A model generated the notes under the pieces. The model saw only the letters and a program-made list of their open reading frames with translations. It was not told the DNA's origin and did not search any database. A stretch of DNA of 64,000 nucleotides from Symmachiella macrocystis (lineage in GTDB: Bacteria; Planctomycetota; Planctomycetia; Planctomycetales; Planctomycetaceae), in assembly GCF_007860075.1 (NCBI RefSeq), contig NZ_SJPP01000001.1, forward strand, positions 3,197,490-3,261,489, in the 5' to 3' direction. The translations under genes and the position numbers were made by a program. Below, one piece after another: positions 20,807-47,897 of the stretch (position 1 is the stretch's first letter; the number at the start of each line of letters is the position of its first letter).

Positions 20807-23800
20807 CTACTTTTGGGGCACGACCGTCATCGTGTAGTAGCCGATTGCCGGCCAGAGGGGTTGGTTGGCGTCTGGGCCGATGCGGCCGCAGCTGACTTCG
20901 TAGACGAACTTTTTCTGCAGTGCGTCGACAGTCAATACGACTTCGCGTCCATCTTCGGAGACTTGGGCGCCGGTAACGGTCACTTTGTGGCGGCCTGATT
21001 CGGGAGTTGCGTAGCCACCCTCCCAGATGCGTGTGTAGGCCGAAATGGTGTAGTTTTCCGGATCGGCGGCAGCTTTGCGATTCACCGGAGCAGTGAAGGT
21101 CAACGTGAAGCCTTGCGGATTCGCGCGGAGTTCGCGAATGCCGAGTGGTAATTTTCCATTGGGTCGCAACCGCACGATGTCGCCGAGATTGTGTCCGCCC
21201 AACCATCCGCTGTCGTGAATGCTACCGATATAGATATCGCCATCGGGGCTGACGGCACCGCTGAGCGCGCCGGTGAAATTGGCGGTTGCGTCTTCGATAT
21301 CCGTGCGGCTGAGCCGATAGGCGGCGCCTTGCAGAACGTCACCGACTTGTTGCGTCGTAAAGCGAATCAGCGCCCGTGTGTCGTATTCACAGCCAATGCC
21401 GTGACCGGCGAAGGGGCCGAAGACTTGAGGGTTTTTGACAAGTTCGGAGTTCAAAAAGAAGATGCCGTTCACGCTCCGCGTCCAGGGGTGCGGGAGTTGC
21501 ACCGCCGGCCACATGGGGGGGGAATCGGGTGAGTCACGGTGCGGACTGGTCACGCCGTAACCGCGTCCCGGCACGAGGTGATTGATCTCATTAAAGGTGT
21601 TCTGCACTCCTTGTTGATCGGACATATAAATACGATCGGCTTGGTCGATCGCCAATCCGGTGGGATAACGCAGGTCATGCCCCAGCGGTTCGATTTTGCC
21701 CGACGGATCAATCCGCAACACTTTGCCGCGCCAGCGTGTATGTTCGGCGCGCCTTTTTTTTTGAGCGTAGTCACTGCCCAACCCCACGTACAGATTGCCG
21801 GACGAGTCTCGCACGATGCCGGTCGTCCAGTCGTGGTAATTGTCGTTGAATCCCCAACCGGTGGCGACGACTTCCCGCACATCCGCGCGGCCATCGCCGT
21901 CGGTGTCGCGCAGTCGTAGCAATTCTGGTTTGTGGGCCACGATCAAATCCGCTCCGTCGGCGATCACGCCGTAAGCGGCGGCAAGTCCTTCTTCGAAGAG
22001 CCGCAATTCATCCTCGATGCCGTCGCCATCGGTGTCCTCGGCGATATAAACATGCCCTTTTAGCGAGGTGAATACCATCTTTCCGTCCGGCGTCCAGGTG
22101 ATCGCTGTCGGCATAATCGATCGCGACAACGGCAAACGTATTCCGTCATAGCCCGGCACCGAGGTGATTTTTTCGATGGGGAACTTCGAAGGCGTTGCGG
22201 GATTCTTGCCGAGTTCCTCCGGTTTCAGTTCGCACAGGTAGCGGAACGCCCCCAAGGCCGTATCGCCCGTTTTGTCAATCATGCTGCCTTGAGTTTTGCC
22301 ATCGGCCGAAACGGACTCCCACGGCGTGGCCGATTCGTCTATGGCTTTGACCAGGGGATTACCAAAAGCAACCTCAGGCGTGCGATGCAATAAAACCGCT
22401 TGAAATCCCTCCGGGATACCACTCACGGAAATGCGGCGCTTCCAACCTGTTAGTTGAGATTGGTCTGGGGCCACGGCAGGGCGGATGTCTTCGGTGACGT
22501 GCAGTTGCCGGTCGTTGGGGAAATTCAAAACATATTCAAGCTGCACACCGTTGCTGTCAGTATGATAACTGACCAAGCGGCCATGCGTGCCTTGGGCACG
22601 GGTAGGCATCAACAACGCATCGCTTGCTGTGCCGTCGACGTGAAGTGCGATGTCGGGGGCGTTGGGTGTTCCTACGGCAATAGTCACACCGGCCGCGTCC
22701 CAAAACCAACTTTTGCCTTGTGTGCGTTGGCGGGCGAAGTCGCCCAGCCACCATTGGCGTAGCGAAAACGTATCGAGGTCGTAAAGCACGTTGTGCCGAT
22801 TCGGTAGTCCCACGGCGAATGAGCGCGGCGTATAACCGCCGTCCGCTTTGTGATTCGTGAACACGTCACGAACAATGCGCGGGGGTTCGTCTGGGCGGAC
22901 GACCAGATATTGTTCGACCACCGAGGGATTTGTCGGCACGGTGAAGTTGGGATCATTGAGTCCATCCCAGATCGCCGCCAATTGCCGATCGTGATTGCCG
23001 GCCAAAATTTTGGGAACCGGTTTGTCAAACGAAGGCATCTCCATACCCGGTACAATCCGCAGGGGCGAACGTGTCCACCGCAAAAAATACTCCCGCCGCA
23101 TGCGCTGGCCCAACATCAGCAGATCAGACCCGCGCGTGCCCAGTGCGACGTTACGCGGTTCGAATTTGCCAAAGGCGTGGCAGGCAACGCAACTAAATCC
23201 TTTGCCGCCGACGAGTTCATGTCCGGCAATCAAGGCTTGTCTGCGCTCGGTCTCAGTGATGTTGGCCAGCGGCTCGGTGCTGATGTTTGGAATGCGATCA
23301 TGACCGATTAAGAATTTCGTCAAGGCTTGTTTTTCGGCGTCGGTATGTTGAAATCGCGGCATGCGGACTTTGAGCCAAGGCAACCGTGGTTTCTTTTGTT
23401 CGCCGCTGACGGCCTCGGATAACGCATCGTCCTGCAACTTATCGCCGACCGCCGTCAGCGCCGGCGGAATGAGTGCTTCGCTTTGTCCCTGCAAGGTTTC
23501 ATCGACCCGCGACATCTTTCCGGCAATGGCCACGATTCCTTTGCCCAGGTCGCGTTCATGGCAGTTCAAGCAATTCCGCTGCACCAACAATTGCCGTCCC
23601 TGTTCAAATTCTCCCACGGGAGTCCGCAGTTCGTTATGCGTTGCGACATAAGCGGCAATGTCTGCTGAATCGACGTGCGGATAAAATGGGCGGGAATGTT
23701 GGTCCGCGGGTTGTGCGGACAAACAAGACTTCGCCGATTTCATTGTCGCGGCGGACAACCTCGGAATGTTGGCGAGGTTTTCATCAACACCCGGGATGCG

Positions 23801-24958
23801 GTGGCAATTGGCGCAGCGGGCGGTGACAACCAATGCACGACCGGCCTTAATTGTTTGCGCCGAGTCCTGTTGTGATTTGCCTGGATCAGCCGATTGCTCA
23901 GTCGGCGTTAAATAGAGCGCCAATTGCGCGCGTTCTTCTTTCGACAATTTGACCACCGGCATGCGGTGATCTCGATTCAATTTTTCCGGGTGGGCCAACC
24001 AGGTGTAGATCCAATCGCGGCTTCTTTTTTTGCCAATCTGACTTAGGTCCCCACCGGTAAATTCTGAAGTCGTTCCGTACTCACCATGGGTATGGCAGGC
24101 GAGGCAACCGACGGAGCGCAGCAGAATTTCGCCTTCCCGGCGGGCGACGGTTTCGTCCTTGACTGCGGGCAGGTCCGTGGTGGCGACCGGATCGCCTTGT
24201 AGTAAAAATGCGGCGATGGTCTCGGCTTGTTTGCGGTCGAAACCAAATTGCGGCATGTTGGCATGCGGATCGTCGGCTGCAGCGCCGGATAATTGATCGA
24301 TGATCCAAGCACGCGACAACCCGCCGGCAGCATGCGCTAAACTGGGAGCCGGGTTGCTGAGTTGTTCCTGTTTTCGGCGATGGCAGCGATTGCAGCGGTT
24401 AGCAGCAATAGCCGTTTGTCCCCGTTCAATTTGTTTCAGCTCGGCGGCAACATCATTGCGGTACAGGAAACGTGCCGGCAGTGGTTCGCGGTCGAAGCGG
24501 TCCGCGGACCAAAACAATTTGAGCTGACCGGCCTTTCCCGTTTTTTTGTACTGCACATCCAGTTCAAACTCACCGAAGTCGAATTCCAACGGCGGACCAT
24601 TGATCCACCCCGGCTGTTGCTGCTTTCCAGAAAGCACTTCTTTTCCGTCGAGCGTGATCGTAACTTGACCTTGGACGTAGGCAAAGAACCGGTAAGTGCT
24701 CGGTTCCTGCAAAAGCAATCGCCCTTGCCACTTGGCTTGAAAGCGGCCAGCGGGCAAGCGAGGATCGGGGCTAGCGGTTCCCCAAGCGAACTCAATGTCC
24801 GGGTCAATACGGCGAATGTTTTTTTTACCGGATGAATAAACGGCGGACAGTCCGGGCAGATAATCCGCATCTTCTTCGTCTTCTTCCACCGCCGCAACCG
24901 GTGCGACAAACAATCCGAGCATCACAAGACAGAGCAAGCACATCAACGGGCGGGGCAT
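20807..24958 (-). CDS. Very large PVC-type multihaem protein with PA14-like and beta-propeller domains
   Basis: A 1383-residue exported protein with a signal peptide (cleavage near VAAVEED). Residues about 35-165 resemble a PA14 carbohydrate-binding domain. Five CxxCH haem-attachment motifs follow at 189-193, 285-289, 382-386, 463-467 and 590-594, in successive cytochrome c-like modules. A linker of about 200 residues leads to a PQQ/sorbosone-dehydrogenase-like beta-propeller (about 930-1260) with Asp-rich calcium-type loops (DTDGDGIEDE, DTDGDGRADV), and a C-terminal beta domain. It looks like a sugar-binding periplasmic dehydrogenase whose electrons pass along its own haems. The substrate is unknown. 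Confidence 0.88.
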   Translation of the reverse strand: MPRPLMCLLCLVMLGLFVAPVAAVEEDEEDADYLPGLSAVYSSGKKNIRRIDPDIEFAWGTASPDPRLPAGRFQAKWQGRLLLQEPSTYRFFAYVQGQVTITLDGKEVLSGKQQQPGWINGPPLEFDFGEFELDVQYKKTGKAGQLKLFWSADRFDREPLPARFLYRNDVAAELKQIERGQTAIAANRCNRCHRRKQEQLSNPAPSLAHAAGGLSRAWIIDQLSGAAADDPHANMPQFGFDRKQAETIAAFLLQGDPVATTDLPAVKDETVARREGEILLRSVGCLACHTHGEYGTTSEFTGGDLSQIGKKRSRDWIYTWLAHPEKLNRDHRMPVVKLSKEERAQLALYLTPTEQSADPGKSQQDSAQTIKAGRALVVTARCANCHRIPGVDENLANIPRLSAATMKSAKSCLSAQPADQHSRPFYPHVDSADIAAYVATHNELRTPVGEFEQGRQLLVQRNCLNCHERDLGKGIVAIAGKMSRVDETLQGQSEALIPPALTAVGDKLQDDALSEAVSGEQKKPRLPWLKVRMPRFQHTDAEKQALTKFLIGHDRIPNISTEPLANITETERRQALIAGHELVGGKGFSCVACHAFGKFEPRNVALGTRGSDLLMLGQRMRREYFLRWTRSPLRIVPGMEMPSFDKPVPKILAGNHDRQLAAIWDGLNDPNFTVPTNPSVVEQYLVVRPDEPPRIVRDVFTNHKADGGYTPRSFAVGLPNRHNVLYDLDTFSLRQWWLGDFARQRTQGKSWFWDAAGVTIAVGTPNAPDIALHVDGTASDALLMPTRAQGTHGRLVSYHTDSNGVQLEYVLNFPNDRQLHVTEDIRPAVAPDQSQLTGWKRRISVSGIPEGFQAVLLHRTPEVAFGNPLVKAIDESATPWESVSADGKTQGSMIDKTGDTALGAFRYLCELKPEELGKNPATPSKFPIEKITSVPGYDGIRLPLSRSIMPTAITWTPDGKMVFTSLKGHVYIAEDTDGDGIEDELRLFEEGLAAAYGVIADGADLIVAHKPELLRLRDTDGDGRADVREVVATGWGFNDNYHDWTTGIVRDSSGNLYVGLGSDYAQKKRRAEHTRWRGKVLRIDPSGKIEPLGHDLRYPTGLAIDQADRIYMSDQQGVQNTFNEINHLVPGRGYGVTSPHRDSPDSPPMWPAVQLPHPWTRSVNGIFFLNSELVKNPQVFGPFAGHGIGCEYDTRALIRFTTQQVGDVLQGAAYRLSRTDIEDATANFTGALSGAVSPDGDIYIGSIHDSGWLGGHNLGDIVRLRPNGKLPLGIRELRANPQGFTLTFTAPVNRKAAADPENYTISAYTRIWEGGYATPESGRHKVTVTGAQVSEDGREVVLTVDALQKKFVYEVSCGRIGPDANQPLWPAIGYYTMTVVPQK

Positions 24959-30866: not shown

Positions 30867-31682
30867 TTGAAAGCCATCATCAGCGACATTCATGGAAACC
30901 TGGAAGCCCTCGAGGCCGTACTCGCGGACATCAAAGGTTTGGGAATCGACGAAATCTATTGCCTGGGTGATGTGGTCGGTTACGGCCCCAATCCGCGTGA
31001 ATGCGTCGATTTGGTGATGAAATCGTGCAAGATGTGCTTGCTGGGAAACCACGATCAAGGGGCACTGTTTGATCCTGAGGGGTTTAACGCCGGTGCCGAG
31101 CGGGCGATCTTTTGGACACGCTCGGTCTTGGAATCGGGTGATTCGGCCGGCAACGAACGCCGTTGGGAGTTCCTGGGAGAATTGCCACGCATGCACAACG
31201 AGGGCGACTTTAAGTTTGTGCACGGGTCCGCTCGCAACCCGCTCAATGAATATGTTTTTCCCGAAGACATTTATAACCAGCTCAAAATGGAGCGGATCTT
31301 CGGGTTGATTCAGCAGTATTGTTTTCAAGGACACACACACGTTCCCGGCGTCTTCACCGAAAACCTCAATTTCTTCAGCCCGTCGGAAATCAATCATGAA
31401 TATGAATTGACCGGCGGCAAATTGATGGTCAATGTCGGCTCTGTGGGACAGCCACGCGATGGCGACCCCCGCGCTTGTTATGTTGTGTTGGAAAACGAAC
31501 CCGCGTCCGACGCCAATGCCGAAGCGGCCGCCGAGACCGACGTGGAGTCGGCCACTCCCGCTCCTCCGGCCAAACTGACATATCGCCGCGTTGATTATGG
31601 TTTTGAAGACACGGCGGCAAAAATTTACGACATCCCCGATCTCGATAACTTCCTGGGGGATCGCCTCCGCGACGGCCGGTAA
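30867..31682 (+). CDS. Calcineurin-like metallophosphoesterase (YfcE/UDP-hydrolase-like)
   Basis: A 271-residue protein starting at a TTG codon, directly followed by the motif-bearing [10 protein letters not shown]. Dinuclear metal ligands are Asp7 and His9 (SDIHGN), Asp35 ([10 protein letters not shown]), Asn61-His62 (LGNHD) and the His residues in GHTHVPG. The YGPNPRE and [12 protein letters not shown] stretches are typical of small diadenosine-tetraphosphatase-like phosphodiesterases. A low-complexity Ala/Glu insert sits near residues 213-232. Its stop is three bases before the yidC start, so the two are probably cotranscribed. The substrate is unknown. Confidence 0.88.
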
Positions 31683-31685
31683 ACA

Positions 31686-34052
31686 ATGGAAAATAATCAA
31701 CGCTTTTGGATTTTTATGGTCGCTGCGTCAGCGATCTATTTGGGGTGGATGTGGTTCAATCCCCCTGCGGGACAAAACCCTGCAGCCAATAAACCGGCCG
31801 CGAATGCTGAGGTTGCCGAGAAGGATCCGCAACCAGCCGCGGTGGCGGATCAGGACCCTGACGCGCCACCGGCGGATGCTGCCGCAGACGATAAGAATGC
31901 CGATGATAAGGCAGTTGTTGCGGAAGCTGCCGGAGACGAAGCCGCCCCGGAAGATGGCGACAAGCAGGAAGAACCGGCAGTTGCTGACCTTAAAATCCCA
32001 GAGTTTCTGAACCAGACAGTCCTGATCGGATCCGACAATCCCGAAACCGGATTTCGCATGGCTGTGACGATCGATACCCGCGGCGCGGCTATCGAATATG
32101 TGGAACTCAATGATCCGCGGTATCGCAATCTTAAGAATCGCCAAGCCCCATTGAAGGTTGTCGGCAGTAGCGATCAGGCGGACCACGATAAGTTGCGCAA
32201 AGAACAACGGCAACAGGACCAGCTGGTTCTCAAAGTCCAATCGATCTTCCGCAAAAATTGTTACAAATGTCACGCCAAGCCCGCACCGGCGGGTGGCTTT
32301 CGGATTGATTCCCGCAATGGTTTGTTCGCCGGCAGTGATACCGGCGCGCCGATTGTGCCCGGCGACCCCAGTCACAGTTTGGTCGTGCAGGCCATCCGGC
32401 AGGAAAACGAGCATTTCAAAATGCCCCCCGAGGGGAAGAAGCTCTCAGACAAAGACATCAACGACATTGTGCGTTGGGTCGAGATCGGTGCACCCATGCT
32501 GACACCGATGACGTTGCAGGTCACGGTGCCGCAAATTGAAGACCAATTCGCCGAGGCAATCGAATCGCTGAATTCGGTGAATTGGGAGTTGGTGGAGAAG
32601 GCAAAGGATGACTCAAAGGCGGTCTTTCGCATCACTTCGCCCGATGGCCGATTCGAATTGACCAAGACCTATCAGGTGAACAAGGCCAAAGGTGACAAAC
32701 CGGAAGACGAAGTCGACGCTTACGTCCTAGATTTTGATTTCAGCATCAAGAACCTGTCCCAAGAAGCGCAGAGCGTGAATTATGTTCTGCAAGGTCCGGT
32801 GGGCGTCCCGTTGGAAAGTGTGGTAGGAGCCCGCAAGTTTCGCGATGTGCAATTCGCATTTCTTAACCGCGAAGACAAGGCCTTTCATTCCGACTCACTT
32901 TCGGCCCAGGAAATTGCCGAAGGAGAAACGAGTCTGTGGGAGCAACCGATTTTAAAATACATCGGTGTCGATGCGCAATACTTCGCCGCCTTCCTGCAGC
33001 CCGCCAACGAACCGACGGTGGAAGATTCTTATTTCCGCAACTATACGCCAGTCGCCAGCGGCACCATCGACAAGGAGCATCCCGAGCGGACCGACATTAG
33101 CGTGTCGATCACCTCCAATGACGCGGACTTGAAGCCGGGTGAATCGCTGACGCACGAGTACGAACTCTTTGCAGGACCAAAGCGGAAAGAATTGCTGGAG
33201 CCGCACGGCGCCGAGACAATTATGGATCTGGGCTGGTTCGGAGCCATCGCCAAGGTGATGCTATGGTTGCTGGACAAGTTCTATGCGGTGATTCCCAACT
33301 ATGGTGTGGCGATCATCTTGCTCACGGTCATGGTTCGCTTGTGCATGTTTCCCCTCTCCCGTAAGCAGGCGCTGGGCGCCGCGAAGATGCAGGAGATCAA
33401 ACCGGAAATCGATGCGCTGAAAAAGAAGTACGGCGACGACCGGGAAAAAATGGGCCGCGCCCAGATGGAGTTGTTCCGCAAACACAAATACAACCCCTTT
33501 AGCGGTTGTCTGGTGTTGTTCATTCAGATGCCGGTCTTTTTCGGTCTGTACACCGCGTTGCGGAGCAGCGTGAATTTGCGGATGGCTCACTTTTTGTGGA
33601 TCGACAACCTCGCCGCCCCGGATGCGCTTTTTCCCTTGGGCTTCGAATTACCCTTTAGTTTGGGTGATACGTTCAATCTGCTACCGATCATCACGATTGT
33701 GTTGTTTATCGTCCAACAGAAATTATTCATGCCGCCGCCAACCGATGAGCAATCGGCCATGCAGGCCAAGATGATGAAGTACATGATGATCTTCATGGGA
33801 TTCATGTTCTACAACGTACCGGCCGGACTGTGCGTGTATTTCATCTCGTCCAGCTTGTGGGGCATCGCCGAACGCAAATTGCTGCCGAAGGTCCAAAAAC
33901 ATTCCAGCGGAGGTTCGGACGATGGTGGCGGCGGTTCGAAAGGCGATAAGGGTGGTGGCTCAAAAGGTGATGGATCCCCCACGCCAGGGGCGAGTCCCAA
34001 AGCAACACCCAAATTGGGAGCTGCTAAGAAGAAATCACGACCGCGTCGCTAA
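31686..34052 (+). CDS. yidC: Membrane protein insertase YidC with an inserted c-type haem domain
   Basis: A 788-residue YidC. It has an N-terminal membrane helix (about 7-24), an Ala/Asp-rich linker (28-100), a periplasmic domain and the C-terminal five-helix insertase core (about 510-745) with the groove Arg551 in LLTVMVRLCMFPLS. A Gly/Ser/Lys-rich tail ends the protein. Unusually, residues about 178-272 form a planctomycete cytochrome (PSCyt1-like) module: CYKCH at 192-196, then GGFRID, PGDPSHSLV, MPPEGKKLS (candidate distal Met246) and WVEIGAPM. It splits the YidC beta-sandwich domain. The frame is continuous on both sides, so it is a true insertion. The gene lies between a phosphoesterase and mnmE. 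Confidence 0.93.
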   Translation: MENNQRFWIFMVAASAIYLGWMWFNPPAGQNPAANKPAANAEVAEKDPQPAAVADQDPDAPPADAAADDKNADDKAVVAEAAGDEAAPEDGDKQEEPAVADLKIPEFLNQTVLIGSDNPETGFRMAVTIDTRGAAIEYVELNDPRYRNLKNRQAPLKVVGSSDQADHDKLRKEQRQQDQLVLKVQSIFRKNCYKCHAKPAPAGGFRIDSRNGLFAGSDTGAPIVPGDPSHSLVVQAIRQENEHFKMPPEGKKLSDKDINDIVRWVEIGAPMLTPMTLQVTVPQIEDQFAEAIESLNSVNWELVEKAKDDSKAVFRITSPDGRFELTKTYQVNKAKGDKPEDEVDAYVLDFDFSIKNLSQEAQSVNYVLQGPVGVPLESVVGARKFRDVQFAFLNREDKAFHSDSLSAQEIAEGETSLWEQPILKYIGVDAQYFAAFLQPANEPTVEDSYFRNYTPVASGTIDKEHPERTDISVSITSNDADLKPGESLTHEYELFAGPKRKELLEPHGAETIMDLGWFGAIAKVMLWLLDKFYAVIPNYGVAIILLTVMVRLCMFPLSRKQALGAAKMQEIKPEIDALKKKYGDDREKMGRAQMELFRKHKYNPFSGCLVLFIQMPVFFGLYTALRSSVNLRMAHFLWIDNLAAPDALFPLGFELPFSLGDTFNLLPIITIVLFIVQQKLFMPPPTDEQSAMQAKMMKYMMIFMGFMFYNVPAGLCVYFISSSLWGIAERKLLPKVQKHSSGGSDDGGGGSKGDKGGGSKGDGSPTPGASPKATPKLGAAKKKSRPRR

Positions 34053-34179: not shown

Positions 34180-35535
34180 ATGCCATTCGATTTGCACGAT
34201 ACAATCGCCGCGCTCTCTTCGCCGCCCGGTCCGGCGCAGCGAGGGATCGTCCGCATCAGTGGATCCGCTATTCGCGATGCGTTGAACGGATTGTTTCGCC
34301 CGGATGATCCGCCGTTATGGGAAACCGCGCGCCTGCCGCAAAGGCATCCCGGTTCGTTTTGGTTAGCCGATATTCAGCGATGGATGTCGGTCGATATTTT
34401 CCTGTGGCCAACGCAGCGTAGTTACACCGGGCAACCGATGGCCGAAGTGCACACCTGCGGATCGCCGCCGCTGCTGGAAGCGATACTGGCCGCCATTTAT
34501 GCCGCCGACGTCCGCCCGGCGCGAGGCGGCGAATTCACGCTCCGTTCGTTCTTGGCCGGCAAGGTCGATCTACTGCAAGCCGAAGCAGTATTGGGAGTGA
34601 TCGACGCCGATGATCAGGTCCAACTCAACGCGGCGCTGCAGCAACTCGCCGGCGGAATTTCGGGCGACATCAACACGGTCCGCGAGGACTTATTGTCATT
34701 GTTGGCGGACCTTGAAGCGGGGTTGGACTTCGTGGAAGAGGATATCGAGTTCGTCGATAACCGCGAAATCTTGGCCCGCCTCACGCTGGCCGAAACACGG
34801 ATCACCTCGTTGTTGGAACAAGCGGTCGACCGCATGCGCTCAACTGGAACGGCTCGCGTCGTGCTCGCCGGTCGTCCCAACGTGGGCAAAAGCACACTGT
34901 TCAATGCATTGCTCGGCCGCGATGCCGCTCTGGTTTCCGAAATCGCCGGCACGACGCGCGATTATCTGGCCGCTGAGGTCAATTGGCATGGACGGCCGAT
35001 CGAACTGCTCGATACGGCTGGCTGGGAGCTACAGAGCGAGGGACCGTTACAAGCTGCATTGGCGCTGCGCGAAGATCAACTGCAACGCGCCGATTTGATC
35101 ATTTGGTGCGTCTCCGCCGATGAACCGCCCGATCCGCTTCTCAAGGAAGCCGATTGTGGAAACGCCCGTTCGCTGACCGTGCTCACCAAATGCGATCTTC
35201 CTGATACAACGGGGCCCGCATCAGCCCTTCGCGTGAGTGCCGTAACCGGCGCGGGCTTGGAAGAGCTGACCGCCGCCGTCGCCAGCGAACTGTCGCAAGA
35301 CAGTGCAGCCCCTCAACAGTTGTTGGGCACCACCGGTGCGCGCTGCCGCGACAGTCTCCACGGTGCGGTCGAATCACTCCAACGAGCGCGGGAGGTCGCC
35401 GAACTGTCAGCCGGAGACGAACTGCTATCGATTGAAATCCGCGTTGCTTTAGAGGAACTAGGTAAAGTCAGCGGAGCGGTCTATACAGACGACATTCTAG
35501 ACCGCATTTTCAGCAAGTTTTGCATCGGGAAGTAA
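34180..35535 (+). CDS. mnmE: tRNA modification GTPase MnmE
   Basis: A 451-residue protein that, with MnmG, adds the carboxymethylaminomethyl group to U34 of certain tRNAs. The N-terminal folate-binding domain opens with LHDTIAALSSPPGPAQRGIV, and the G domain has GRPNVGKS (231-238), an AGTTRD switch and DTAGW. The C-terminus is CIGK, with the conserved catalytic Cys. The G4 motif reads TKCD rather than NKxD, a minor departure. It lies 127 bases after yidC, the usual bacterial neighbourhood. mnmG is not in the window. Confidence 0.95.
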   Translation: MPFDLHDTIAALSSPPGPAQRGIVRISGSAIRDALNGLFRPDDPPLWETARLPQRHPGSFWLADIQRWMSVDIFLWPTQRSYTGQPMAEVHTCGSPPLLEAILAAIYAADVRPARGGEFTLRSFLAGKVDLLQAEAVLGVIDADDQVQLNAALQQLAGGISGDINTVREDLLSLLADLEAGLDFVEEDIEFVDNREILARLTLAETRITSLLEQAVDRMRSTGTARVVLAGRPNVGKSTLFNALLGRDAALVSEIAGTTRDYLAAEVNWHGRPIELLDTAGWELQSEGPLQAALALREDQLQRADLIIWCVSADEPPDPLLKEADCGNARSLTVLTKCDLPDTTGPASALRVSAVTGAGLEELTAAVASELSQDSAAPQQLLGTTGARCRDSLHGAVESLQRAREVAELSAGDELLSIEIRVALEELGKVSGAVYTDDILDRIFSKFCIGK

Positions 35536-44861: not shown

Positions 44862-47800
44862 CTACGGCTTGGCATTGCCCTGCAGATACGCAAACAAATC
44901 CCGCCGTTGTTGCGGACTCAGTTGCTGTAGCAAATTTTCCGGCATCAGCGATGTCGCCGACTCATGCAGTGCTTCGATTTGATTGCGCGGCACTTTGGTG
45001 CGCTTGTCCTTGGCATCAACCAACGTCATCGTCGCCGCGTCTTGTTCCGCTAAAATCCCGGTCATGACTTGTCCGTTGGTTGTCTCCAACACGTAGCTGA
45101 GATACTCCTTGCGAATCACAGCGCTGGGGTCGACGATGTTGGCCAACAGTGCTGCCAGATCGTTGCGATTGGCTTTCGTCAAATCGGGACCAATCTTGCC
45201 CCCTTCGTTGAAGAGTGTATGGCAGGTGGCGCAATGCTTCTTAAAGAGTTCAGCTCCTGCGGTGGGGTTCCCGGAGGCAGCGCGGAGATCGTTATTGAAC
45301 CGCCGCATTTGTGCGAGTTTTTCTTCCGCTGTTCCGGGTTGAATGTTGCCCCAATGTTTACGGACGATCGCATCCAACTCCTCATCCTCATACAACGCGA
45401 CGCGGCGGAGTTGATCGACGGGGAGACTCTCCGGTGAAATCGAGCCCTTTTCCACGAGTGCCAATAACCGCCGTGCCGAATCATGCCGTGCCAACAGTAC
45501 GTCGCGAACTTGCGATTGCAGCGGTGCCGGAAGAGTCGCGTACTGCTCAAACAGCGCGTCAATGTATTCCGCCGATCCAAACCGATTGAGCACTTGAATC
45601 GCCGCCGCCCAGACGTCGTCCGGCTGGTCATCGGTTAGACGCTGCAACACAACAGCCTCGCAATCCTCACGACCAAATTCCTGTAGCAGCGACAATAAGG
45701 ATATCAATTGGGGGTCGTCGGCCGCCGCTTGCATCGTGGTCTCGAGGAGATATTGATGTGCTTCCTCAACGCCCGCCCGCAGCGCCAGCGTTAAGGCGTC
45801 GCGGTCTTGTTGATTTTTTCGCCAGATGCCGAGAATGTATTGCTTCAGCTCCGGCGATGGTTCGACAAATGTGCGACGAGCCCGCTCCGCCGCGTCGTTT
45901 CCGCCCGCTGCGAATTGCGCATACAGTCCGCCATGTCCAATCCCCCCTAATCCGCCCGCTCGTTCCGACAACCCTTGCCCGAGCGCTTTGTGTGCCTCGG
46001 CTAAATCTTGCGAGGGTGTGTTTTGCAAGAGCTGCAAGCCAGCGGCATACCCGGCCGGTGTCCCTTCGGCGGCATAACGACGGATCAGGTTTCGCAGGAT
46101 CGGTTGATTGGCCACCACATTCCAGGCGTCTGCGTGGGCGAATTGTTCCAGAACTTGATCGGCATCGGTGACTGCCTTGCTCTCCACCGCCCACCACAAC
46201 AAAAGCGGAATTCGTAGGTCGTCGTTGTCCAGATTGCGATTCAGAATCGCCTGCACGATCGGCAAGGCCGTCGCTGTTGGGAGCCGTTTGGCGGTGCAGG
46301 CCAATTGGCTTCGCACGATCGGACTCGGTTCCGTTTCGGCTAAGGCGATCAGCAGTTTCGCCATCGGTTCAGAAACCGACTTGGCATCCCCCAACAATCG
46401 CACCGTCCAGGCACGTACATATTCATAAGGATGGGCGAGCAGTTGAGCAGCGAATTCATCGTCCAGTCCGCCACTGACATGTAAGGCCCACAGCCCTTGC
46501 AGTGCATAACGACCGTTGTCTTGAGTGAGGGCGATTTCACGCAACCGCGGCCACGTCGAGGCATCCCGCCGCTCGGCCAACAAAACCCGCGCCCGCTGTC
46601 CGTACCAACCGTTGGGATGCGACAGCAGATCGACCAATTCGTTGCTCGAAAGCTCCGCCAGATTGATCGGTGGCGTCGGTTTCGCGTCCGTCGCTTGAAG
46701 TTTATAAATCCGACCGTTGCTGCGATCCCAATTCGCATCGGGGTCGGGGTGGGCGGTCCGTTGATCGTGAAAGTCGGCGAAGTACATCGCCCCATCCGGT
46801 CCCAACGCCAAATCGGTCGGCCCAAACCAGGTGTCGTGGGAATCAAACAACAATCCCCCGTGCTCTGCCGCGACCGTCGTTTGCCGTGGCGTCACTTTCC
46901 ACCACGAAGCGGAGTGCCCCAAAAAATTCCCACACAAAAACGCGCCGCGAAACCTATTGGGAAACGTATCGCCCAAATAAATCGTGCCGCCGGTGGTCGG
47001 CGTGCCGGTGACGCCGGAGTTCTGGGTGTGGGCGAAATAGCCGTAGGTATAAAGATTGTGCAGCGGGCCATGTTTGCCGAAACTTTTTTGATAGTACCCC
47101 CCCTGCACCGCATGCCAAAACAATCCGCCGTTGGAGCTATAAAACAGATTGCCGTCAGCGTCGAAAGTCAGCCCGTACAGGTTGCCTCCGCCCTCGGCGA
47201 ACAATTCGAATTCCTTCGTCACCGGATGATACCGCCAGACGCCTTGTTGAAATTCGATCCCGCGAATGTTGCAAGTCGTCGTGCTACCGTTCAGCCCATA
47301 CAACCAACCATCCGGTCCAAAGGTGAGATGATTGGCCAGCGACTGCGCGTCTTCCATGCCGAAGCCGGTTAACAGCACTTCCGGATCCGCATCGGGAACA
47401 TCGTCGCGGTTCTTGTCGGGATAAAACAGCAGGTAGGGCACCTGCAAGACAAATACTCCGCCCTGCCCAAAGGCGACGCCCGTGCAAAGATTCAATCCAT
47501 CGACAAAATCCCGTGATTTGTCGGCGTGTCCGTCGCCATCGGTGTCTTCCAGTATCGTGATCTTGTCCGCACCCCGCGGTCCGTGCGGCGGTGGTTTGGG
47601 GACGCGGTCGTAGACAGTCCGCGACCAACGATCGACTTTGACCCGTTTCAGCCCCGCCGGATTGGGATATTGCAGGTATTGGATCGTCCACAGTCGCCCA
47701 CGATCGTCGCATTTCACAAAAATCGGCTGCCGGATTTCCGGTTCCGAGGCGAAAACTTGGATCTCCAGCCCGTCGCTGACGGTCATCTTTCCAGCCGCGT

Positions 47801-47897
47801 CGGCAGGAGAATAACCTTGCCCGCTCGCCGCCGGAGCGTAGATCACAAGTCCGAGCAACAGAGTCAAGCAGACCACACCGCGGTTCATCTCCAACAT
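44862..47897 (-). CDS. PVC-type haem-binding dehydrogenase-like protein with HEAT repeats
   Basis: A 1011-residue exported protein (signal peptide ends near ASGQGY; start M1 or M4). A PQQ/sorbosone-dehydrogenase-like beta-propeller (about 40-400) includes a calcium-type loop DTDGDGHADK and LTFGPDGWLYGLNG. A helical HEAT-like region (about 405-840) follows. The C-terminal cytochrome c domain has CATCH at 889-893, GGKIGPDLTKANR and DPSAVIRKEYLSYV. This domain order is the common PVC single-haem type. It is likely a periplasmic sugar or alcohol oxidase passing electrons to its haem; the substrate is unknown. Confidence 0.88.
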   Translation of the reverse strand: MLEMNRGVVCLTLLLGLVIYAPAASGQGYSPADAAGKMTVSDGLEIQVFASEPEIRQPIFVKCDDRGRLWTIQYLQYPNPAGLKRVKVDRWSRTVYDRVPKPPPHGPRGADKITILEDTDGDGHADKSRDFVDGLNLCTGVAFGQGGVFVLQVPYLLFYPDKNRDDVPDADPEVLLTGFGMEDAQSLANHLTFGPDGWLYGLNGSTTTCNIRGIEFQQGVWRYHPVTKEFELFAEGGGNLYGLTFDADGNLFYSSNGGLFWHAVQGGYYQKSFGKHGPLHNLYTYGYFAHTQNSGVTGTPTTGGTIYLGDTFPNRFRGAFLCGNFLGHSASWWKVTPRQTTVAAEHGGLLFDSHDTWFGPTDLALGPDGAMYFADFHDQRTAHPDPDANWDRSNGRIYKLQATDAKPTPPINLAELSSNELVDLLSHPNGWYGQRARVLLAERRDASTWPRLREIALTQDNGRYALQGLWALHVSGGLDDEFAAQLLAHPYEYVRAWTVRLLGDAKSVSEPMAKLLIALAETEPSPIVRSQLACTAKRLPTATALPIVQAILNRNLDNDDLRIPLLLWWAVESKAVTDADQVLEQFAHADAWNVVANQPILRNLIRRYAAEGTPAGYAAGLQLLQNTPSQDLAEAHKALGQGLSERAGGLGGIGHGGLYAQFAAGGNDAAERARRTFVEPSPELKQYILGIWRKNQQDRDALTLALRAGVEEAHQYLLETTMQAAADDPQLISLLSLLQEFGREDCEAVVLQRLTDDQPDDVWAAAIQVLNRFGSAEYIDALFEQYATLPAPLQSQVRDVLLARHDSARRLLALVEKGSISPESLPVDQLRRVALYEDEELDAIVRKHWGNIQPGTAEEKLAQMRRFNNDLRAASGNPTAGAELFKKHCATCHTLFNEGGKIGPDLTKANRNDLAALLANIVDPSAVIRKEYLSYVLETTNGQVMTGILAEQDAATMTLVDAKDKRTKVPRNQIEALHESATSLMPENLLQQLSPQQRRDLFAYLQGNAKP

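Follow-up and report, generated by a model that had tools for sequence, protein, structure and literature searches.

The single yidC gene of Symmachiella macrocystis encodes a membrane protein insertase that carries, in frame with the rest of the protein, a c-type cytochrome domain of the PSCyt1 family. The fusion is real and is conserved in three genomes of the genus Symmachiella, and its cytochrome domain is under purifying selection. YidC and PSCyt1 are each known, and to our knowledge the combination of both is not; a search of the open-licence literature found nothing on YidC as a haem protein or with a cytochrome domain. We lean towards reading the fusion as a genuine, haem-bearing and functional (that is, selected) part of a working YidC, and the arrangement that most likely accounts for the observations is a haem arm tethered to a working insertase.

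The gene was located in the 64-kb stretch of DNA analysed here (the window), which belongs to an assembly of 7,574,949 bases in 6 contigs (referred to as G000). The features of yidC and of its two neighbours are given below in window coordinates, with residues numbered as in the yidC product.

30867..31682, + strand: calcineurin-like metallophosphoesterase, upstream neighbour
31686..34052, + strand: yidC, membrane protein insertase with inserted c-type cytochrome domain, 788 aa
31686..31769, + strand: N-terminal transmembrane segment, residues 1-28 (hydrophobic stretch, read by eye)
32010..32165, + strand: P1 domain, first part, residues 109-160, ending just past the strand PLKVV (alignments; predicted strand at model positions 56-60)
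32166..32219, + strand: charged linker, residues 161-178 (predicted helix running into the first cytochrome helix)
32220..32501, + strand: PSCyt1 cytochrome c domain, residues 179-272 (PF07635, E 3.9e-14; alignment; dN/dS)
32259..32273, + strand: CYKCH haem-attachment motif, residues 192-196 (sequence; C, C and H in 36/36 aligned PSCyt1 rows)
32421..32423, + strand: Met246 in MPP, putative distal haem ligand (M in 36/36 aligned PSCyt1 rows)
32502..33290, + strand: P1 domain, second part, residues 273-535 (PF14849 at 297-528; match to the E. coli YidC P1 fold)
33300..33875, + strand: insertase core 60KD_IMP, residues 539-730 (PF02096; low dN/dS)
34180..35535, + strand: mnmE-like GTPase, downstream neighbour (named by reading of the sequence)

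The yidC open reading frame starts with ATG and has no internal stop codon. Three Pfam models matched this one polypeptide above their cut-offs: PSCyt1 (PF07635) at residues 192-250, with 53.5 bits against a cut-off of 22 (E 3.9e-14), YidC_periplas (PF14849) at residues 297-528, with 48.2 bits against 24, and 60KD_IMP (PF02096) at residues 539-730, with 175.2 bits against 35 (E 1.3e-51). The PSCyt1 profile was matched over its full length (positions 1-59 of 59). The sequence-only reading had proposed a PSCyt1-like cytochrome domain in frame inside YidC, and this was borne out, with CYKCH at residues 192-196, PGDPSHS, MPPEGKKLS (containing Met246) and WVEIGAPM all present. The NCBIfam models of YidC domains were also reached (TIGR03592, 197.2 bits against 84.3; TIGR03593, 79.4 bits against 58.25). 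None of the NCBIfam full-length YidC equivalogs (PRK01318 and the others listed) matched at its cut-off, the best score being 228.4 bits against 447. These full-length models look lineage-specific, and family membership is carried by the domain models.

The same YidC-cytochrome architecture is encoded in two further Symmachiella genomes, G001 (93% identity) and G002 (66%); the cytochrome insert is thus present in the YidC of 3/3 Symmachiella genomes examined. The G001 assembly is a single contig of 7.8 Mb, and the G002 frame is equal to that of JANQPT010000038.1 (L038). The sequence-only reading had named a lack of relatives with the insertion, which would suggest an assembly chimera, as one outcome that would speak against the fusion. 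Such a chimera is ruled out, because the insert recurs in all three genomes of the genus, down to 66% identity, in agreeing assemblies of which one is a single contig. A joining of two genes by an error of assembly or annotation is accordingly extremely improbable, given the same in-frame architecture in three separate assemblies and the purifying selection found on the inserted frame and on both of its flanks.

The screen of planctomycete YidC proteins for CxxCH that had been suggested with the original observation did find relatives, but the trait was found in one genus only. Among YidC frames chosen from the listed high-scoring matches (not at random) and covering selected families of the class, the motif was found in 3 of 132 distinct frames (134 read), all from Symmachiella; these were 3/65 in family f1 and 0/67 elsewhere, and one of the 129 non-carriers (L037, family f1) is a fragment that stops short of the insert site. 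The stop-to-stop frame of L022 has a variant motif at its residue 8 (CGPAACH), which was disregarded. In a survey of family f1, a YidC match at E <= 1e-30 was obtained in 159/170 genomes, and among the matches listed all but those of the three carriers start at residue 253 or later. In a sample of the class (YidC match in 390/397), two of the listed matches, from G329 and G319, span the insert region, and both have a PDZ domain and no CxxCH. A sample of the phylum (392 genomes, with G000 the only member of the genus listed) was searched with a junction peptide, residues 100-345, which matched 35 genomes at E <= 1e-18. The score was 550 bits for the yidC of the window against at most 82 bits elsewhere in the sample. 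The matches outside yidC fall in query positions 61-208, the cytochrome occupying approximately positions 80-173, and none of nine other matches inspected as loci had a YidC core; a very divergent YidC-cytochrome chimera could escape these searches.

In a profile search, PF02096 matched once in each of the three Symmachiella genomes. Wherever it has been studied YidC is essential, and since each genome has a single match, the chimeric protein presumably does the essential job. The same count rules out that the essential function is performed by a further YidC of normal architecture.

The borders of the insert were defined by the distance between a conserved LGS and a Trp in P1. This spacing is 186, 186 and 188 aa in the Symmachiella YidCs, compared with a median of 81 aa (range 72-152) in 61 family f1 frames without the cytochrome, and therefore about 105 aa were added. 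The added segment corresponds approximately to residues 161-276 and comes after the strand PLKVV and before TLQVTVP; it is made up of the cytochrome domain (179-272), preceded by the charged linker (161-178). A model of P1 with its insert, made from a 66-sequence alignment (pLDDT 84.7, pTM 0.84), has strands at positions 56-60 and 179-181, between which lie the linker and the cytochrome helices. Within the insert, the pLDDT blocks of this fused model were 66-77 (positions 61-100), 43-61 (101-130) and 71-88 (131-180). The best solved match of residues 100-520 was the P1 domain of E. coli YidC (PDB 3BLC chain B; Z 22.9, rmsd 3.1), with 256 of the 278 residues of that chain aligned. The rest of P1 matches this E. 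coli periplasmic domain, and the insert is thus predicted to leave the host fold undisturbed. When the alignment profile of P1 plus cytochrome was compared with solved structures, no match at E <= 0.01 was obtained. The Symmachiella protein thus resembles E. coli YidC (3BLC, 6AL2) in having the P1 fold followed by the insertase core, but differs in the approximately 105 extra residues after PLKVV, which, judging from the aligned lengths, have no counterpart in E. coli P1. In the preferred explanation, the cytochrome was inserted into a loop at the surface of periplasmic P1.

The residues expected of a haem domain were compared across 36 aligned PSCyt1 rows (35 different), all from Symmachiella and made up of 33 paralogues and the three YidC domains. 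C192, C195, H196, M246, P247, P248 and W264 were invariant in 36/36 rows. CxxCH and the Met of MPP are present in 3/3 Symmachiella YidCs, and the three YidC domains keep all 9 positions that never vary among the paralogues, those of the haem motif and the Met among them. The haem of c-type cytochromes is attached in the periplasm, where respiratory cytochromes receive it. Two matches to Cytochrom_C_asm (PF01578) were found in each of the three genomes, and the larger PF01578 protein has, in the part examined, a ResB match just below the cut-off. As P1 faces the periplasm, the cytochrome c assembly machinery would very probably attach haem to the domain, which would then fold as a monohaem cytochrome with His/Met ligation.

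The cytochrome part modelled in isolation, without haem, was predicted with a pLDDT of 84.8. Its best fold match was the iron oxidase FoxE (Z 8.1, rmsd 3.9, 106 aligned), a Z about as high as models without a clear match reach, and the second was the alpha subunit of hydrazine synthase (Z 5.8, rmsd 4.8, 106 aligned). Below these two, most fold matches were cd1 nitrite reductases or c-type cytochromes, and a small number of RNA polymerase chains ranked near the end of the list. Foldseek gave 0/48 matches at E <= 0.001 for the isolated domain (best E 0.08). A sequence-profile search placed FoxE first (E 4.6e-07, in two weak stretches), and FoxE and hydrazine synthase, which we take to be haem c proteins, were the top two matches, counted by protein, by profile as well as by VIA-align. 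Unlike YidC, they are by name enzymes of iron oxidation and hydrazine synthesis and not insertases, and the similarity is weak. A fold predicted without haem would suit a domain kept as a haem-free adaptor, that is, a cytochrome fold maintained for protein-protein interaction without covalent haem. This is improbable, as CYKCH and Met246 are intact in three species and genes for cytochrome c assembly are present.

Selection on the domain was estimated from pairwise dN/dS. The values for the cytochrome domain were 0.18 for G000/G001 (95% interval 0.07-0.38; 1000/1000 bootstraps evaluable) and 0.22 for G000/G002 (0.10-0.41; 945/1000 bootstraps evaluable), synonymous change in the latter pair being near saturation. 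No evaluable bootstrap value was 1 or above for either pair. The values were lower for the P1 sequence around the insert (0.08 for G000/G001 and 0.13 for G000/G002), and the insertase core (residues 536-735) gave 0.02 and 0.05. In the G000/G002 comparison, 23/27 family-conserved positions (conservation in >=75% of the 33 paralogues) were identical, compared with 28/61 of the others (Fisher p 0.0008). The domain of the window departs from the family residue at 9 of these 27 positions (185, 186, 188, 197, 205, 207, 233, 241 and 265).

The rate of change of the YidC domain was also compared with that of other PSCyt1 domains. For G000/G002 its identity was 51/88, against 69/87 and 69/88 in two assumed orthologue pairs and 53/88 in a third, doubtful pair, and for G000/G001 it was 79/88, equal to the lowest of the seven pairs with which it was compared (range 79/88 to 88/88). 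On these alignments, the YidC cytochrome evolves faster than most of the PSCyt1 pairs compared. This lower conservation, together with that of the linker (22% identity between G000 and G002), is in keeping with a domain that is merely tolerated: it would sit in a permissive loop of a region that is largely expendable, fold and bind haem without being of use to YidC, and selection would act only to avert misfolding of an essential protein. Against such a passenger, the 9 paralogue-invariant positions are kept in three species even though 37/88 domain positions differ between G000 and G002, and the domain has been trimmed in none of the three species.

The origin of the domain was addressed with a tree of the 36 PSCyt1 rows, which took in Symmachiella domains alone. 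In it the YidC domains of the three genomes group together as a single clade (100/100) with a long branch. L166 and L146 fall with this clade on one side of a 98/94 split, and its closest neighbours are L166/L159 and L157 (91/91, a fork without a star; midpoint root). L166 and L146, which are encoded in the same genome as the window, are PSCyt1-PSCyt2 proteins, and the domain of the window is identical to theirs at 42/85 (49%) and 40/87 (46%) positions respectively. They share the haem-motif residues of the YidC domain, but in them the domain precedes PSCyt2 (DUF1549) in open frames of >1100 aa, whereas in Symmachiella YidC it is internal to a membrane insertase. The GC content of the insert is 56%, compared with 56% for the window and 54% for the rest of yidC. 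The tree agrees with the domain having been gained once, from a PSCyt1-PSCyt2-like relative. Because the YidC domains form one clade, their relatives are resident and the GC content of the insert is like that of the window, one capture from the resident family, some time ago, would fit. The family is abundant, with 43, 41 and 38 PSCyt1 matches in the three Symmachiella genomes (those in YidC included), which is another point in favour of a passenger. The functions of PSCyt domains are described as unknown in general in PMC5615132, and homology therefore offers no further functional help.

A second kind of domain was encountered in planctomycete YidCs. A PDZ domain was identified in P1 of six named Planctomycetia YidCs (Pfam PDZ_2, E 2.4e-13 to 3.6e-08). 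A PDZ profile made from these six proteins was run on the 132 distinct YidC frames and matched 42 of them, the six included. The matches comprised 36/36 YidCs from families f5, f7, f9, f11-f14, f22 and f23 and 6/17 further named records, and none was obtained in f1 (65 frames), f2 (6), f3 (4), f4 (3) or f6 (1). The PDZ-bearing loci are L039 (same protein as L086), L040, L041, L043, L046, L048, L056, L082-L114, L117, L122 and L131. These proteins resemble Symmachiella YidC in holding a foreign domain in the same part of P1, but they belong to other families of the class and have no CxxCH, and their PDZ precedes the strand PL(K/E)V(V/I) whereas the cytochrome comes after it. Placement of both domains in the same loop was considered and was ruled out on closer alignment, as the two inserts flank one strand. 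PDZ on YidC is perhaps a substrate- or protease-recognition domain; nothing was found on PDZ-bearing YidC in planctomycetes in the open-licence literature.

Another insert, roughly 70 aa long and lying on the cytochrome side, was observed in L017 (G024, family f1) at approximately residues 215-290 of the stop-to-stop yidC frame. It had no Pfam match above cut-off, with one sub-threshold match (E 0.044). The 1024-aa stop-to-stop YidC frame of L139 (G009) has many extra residues before P1, its LGS being at residue 300.

The role of the P1 domain is debated. The PDZ, cytochrome and L017 inserts indicate that this part of P1 accepts whole domains, and the cytochrome- and PDZ-bearing YidCs show P1 to be a site at which lineages attach additional modules, a point relevant to its purpose. 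The same tolerance of insertions adds weight to the passenger explanation, as does the report from E. coli (PMC5766551) that removal of most of P1 leaves YidC function uninhibited. Taking both sides together, a passenger is a possible but doubtful explanation, about as likely as a docking or redox arm.

In the preferred reading of a haem arm on a working insertase, a PSCyt1 domain, probably copied from a protein of the PSCyt1-PSCyt2 type, would have been inserted into the single yidC of Symmachiella, once, before the sampled species diverged. This would place the predicted periplasmic haem domain beside the exit site of SecYEG-SecDF-YidC. According to PMC7618853, P1 contacts SecD and SecF, and YidC together with SecYEG helps to insert cytochrome bo oxidase and NADH dehydrogenase. 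While respiratory complexes with cytochromes, or other haem proteins, are being assembled, the haem arm might make contact with them, and it would leave the insertase chemistry unchanged in what is otherwise a standard YidC. A function of this tethered haem in docking or redox is put forward only tentatively. More speculative still is the proposal that it reports the state of periplasmic electron transfer, or attaches to nascent respiratory complexes, and in this way couples insertion and folding to respiration. If true, a haem- or redox-coupled insertase would link membrane-protein insertion at the translocon to respiration. Cultured members of the genus exist, and the cytochrome is carried by its sole YidC, on the face of the membrane at which respiratory cytochromes receive haem c; Symmachiella YidC thus offers a testable case in which membrane-protein biogenesis may be coupled to redox state or haem.

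The genes next to yidC were also considered. The stop codon of the metallophosphoesterase gene ends at 31682 and yidC starts at 31686, a distance at which the two genes may be close enough for co-transcription. Relatives of mnmE were found in 78/134 yidC loci, in cytochrome carriers and non-carriers and with flanks of varying length, and in 73 of these 78 loci the relative lies <=1.5 kb downstream on the same strand. Since an mnmE relative is kept beside yidC in carriers and non-carriers, the Symmachiella yidC is the ancestral gene, altered in place. Neither the metallophosphoesterase nor the mnmE-like gene suggests a haem or respiratory role. Promoter- and terminator-like sites around yidC were near the shuffled expectation, and no Rfam match was obtained within the window.

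Two other cytochrome-containing proteins are encoded in the window, both on the - strand. The first, at 20807-24958, is a large multihaem cytochrome of 1383 aa that contains five CxxCH motifs and matches PA14, cytochrome c and DUF7133. The second, at 44862-47897, is a DUF7133-HEAT protein of 1011 aa whose cytochrome c domain is C-terminal (CATCH at residue 889).
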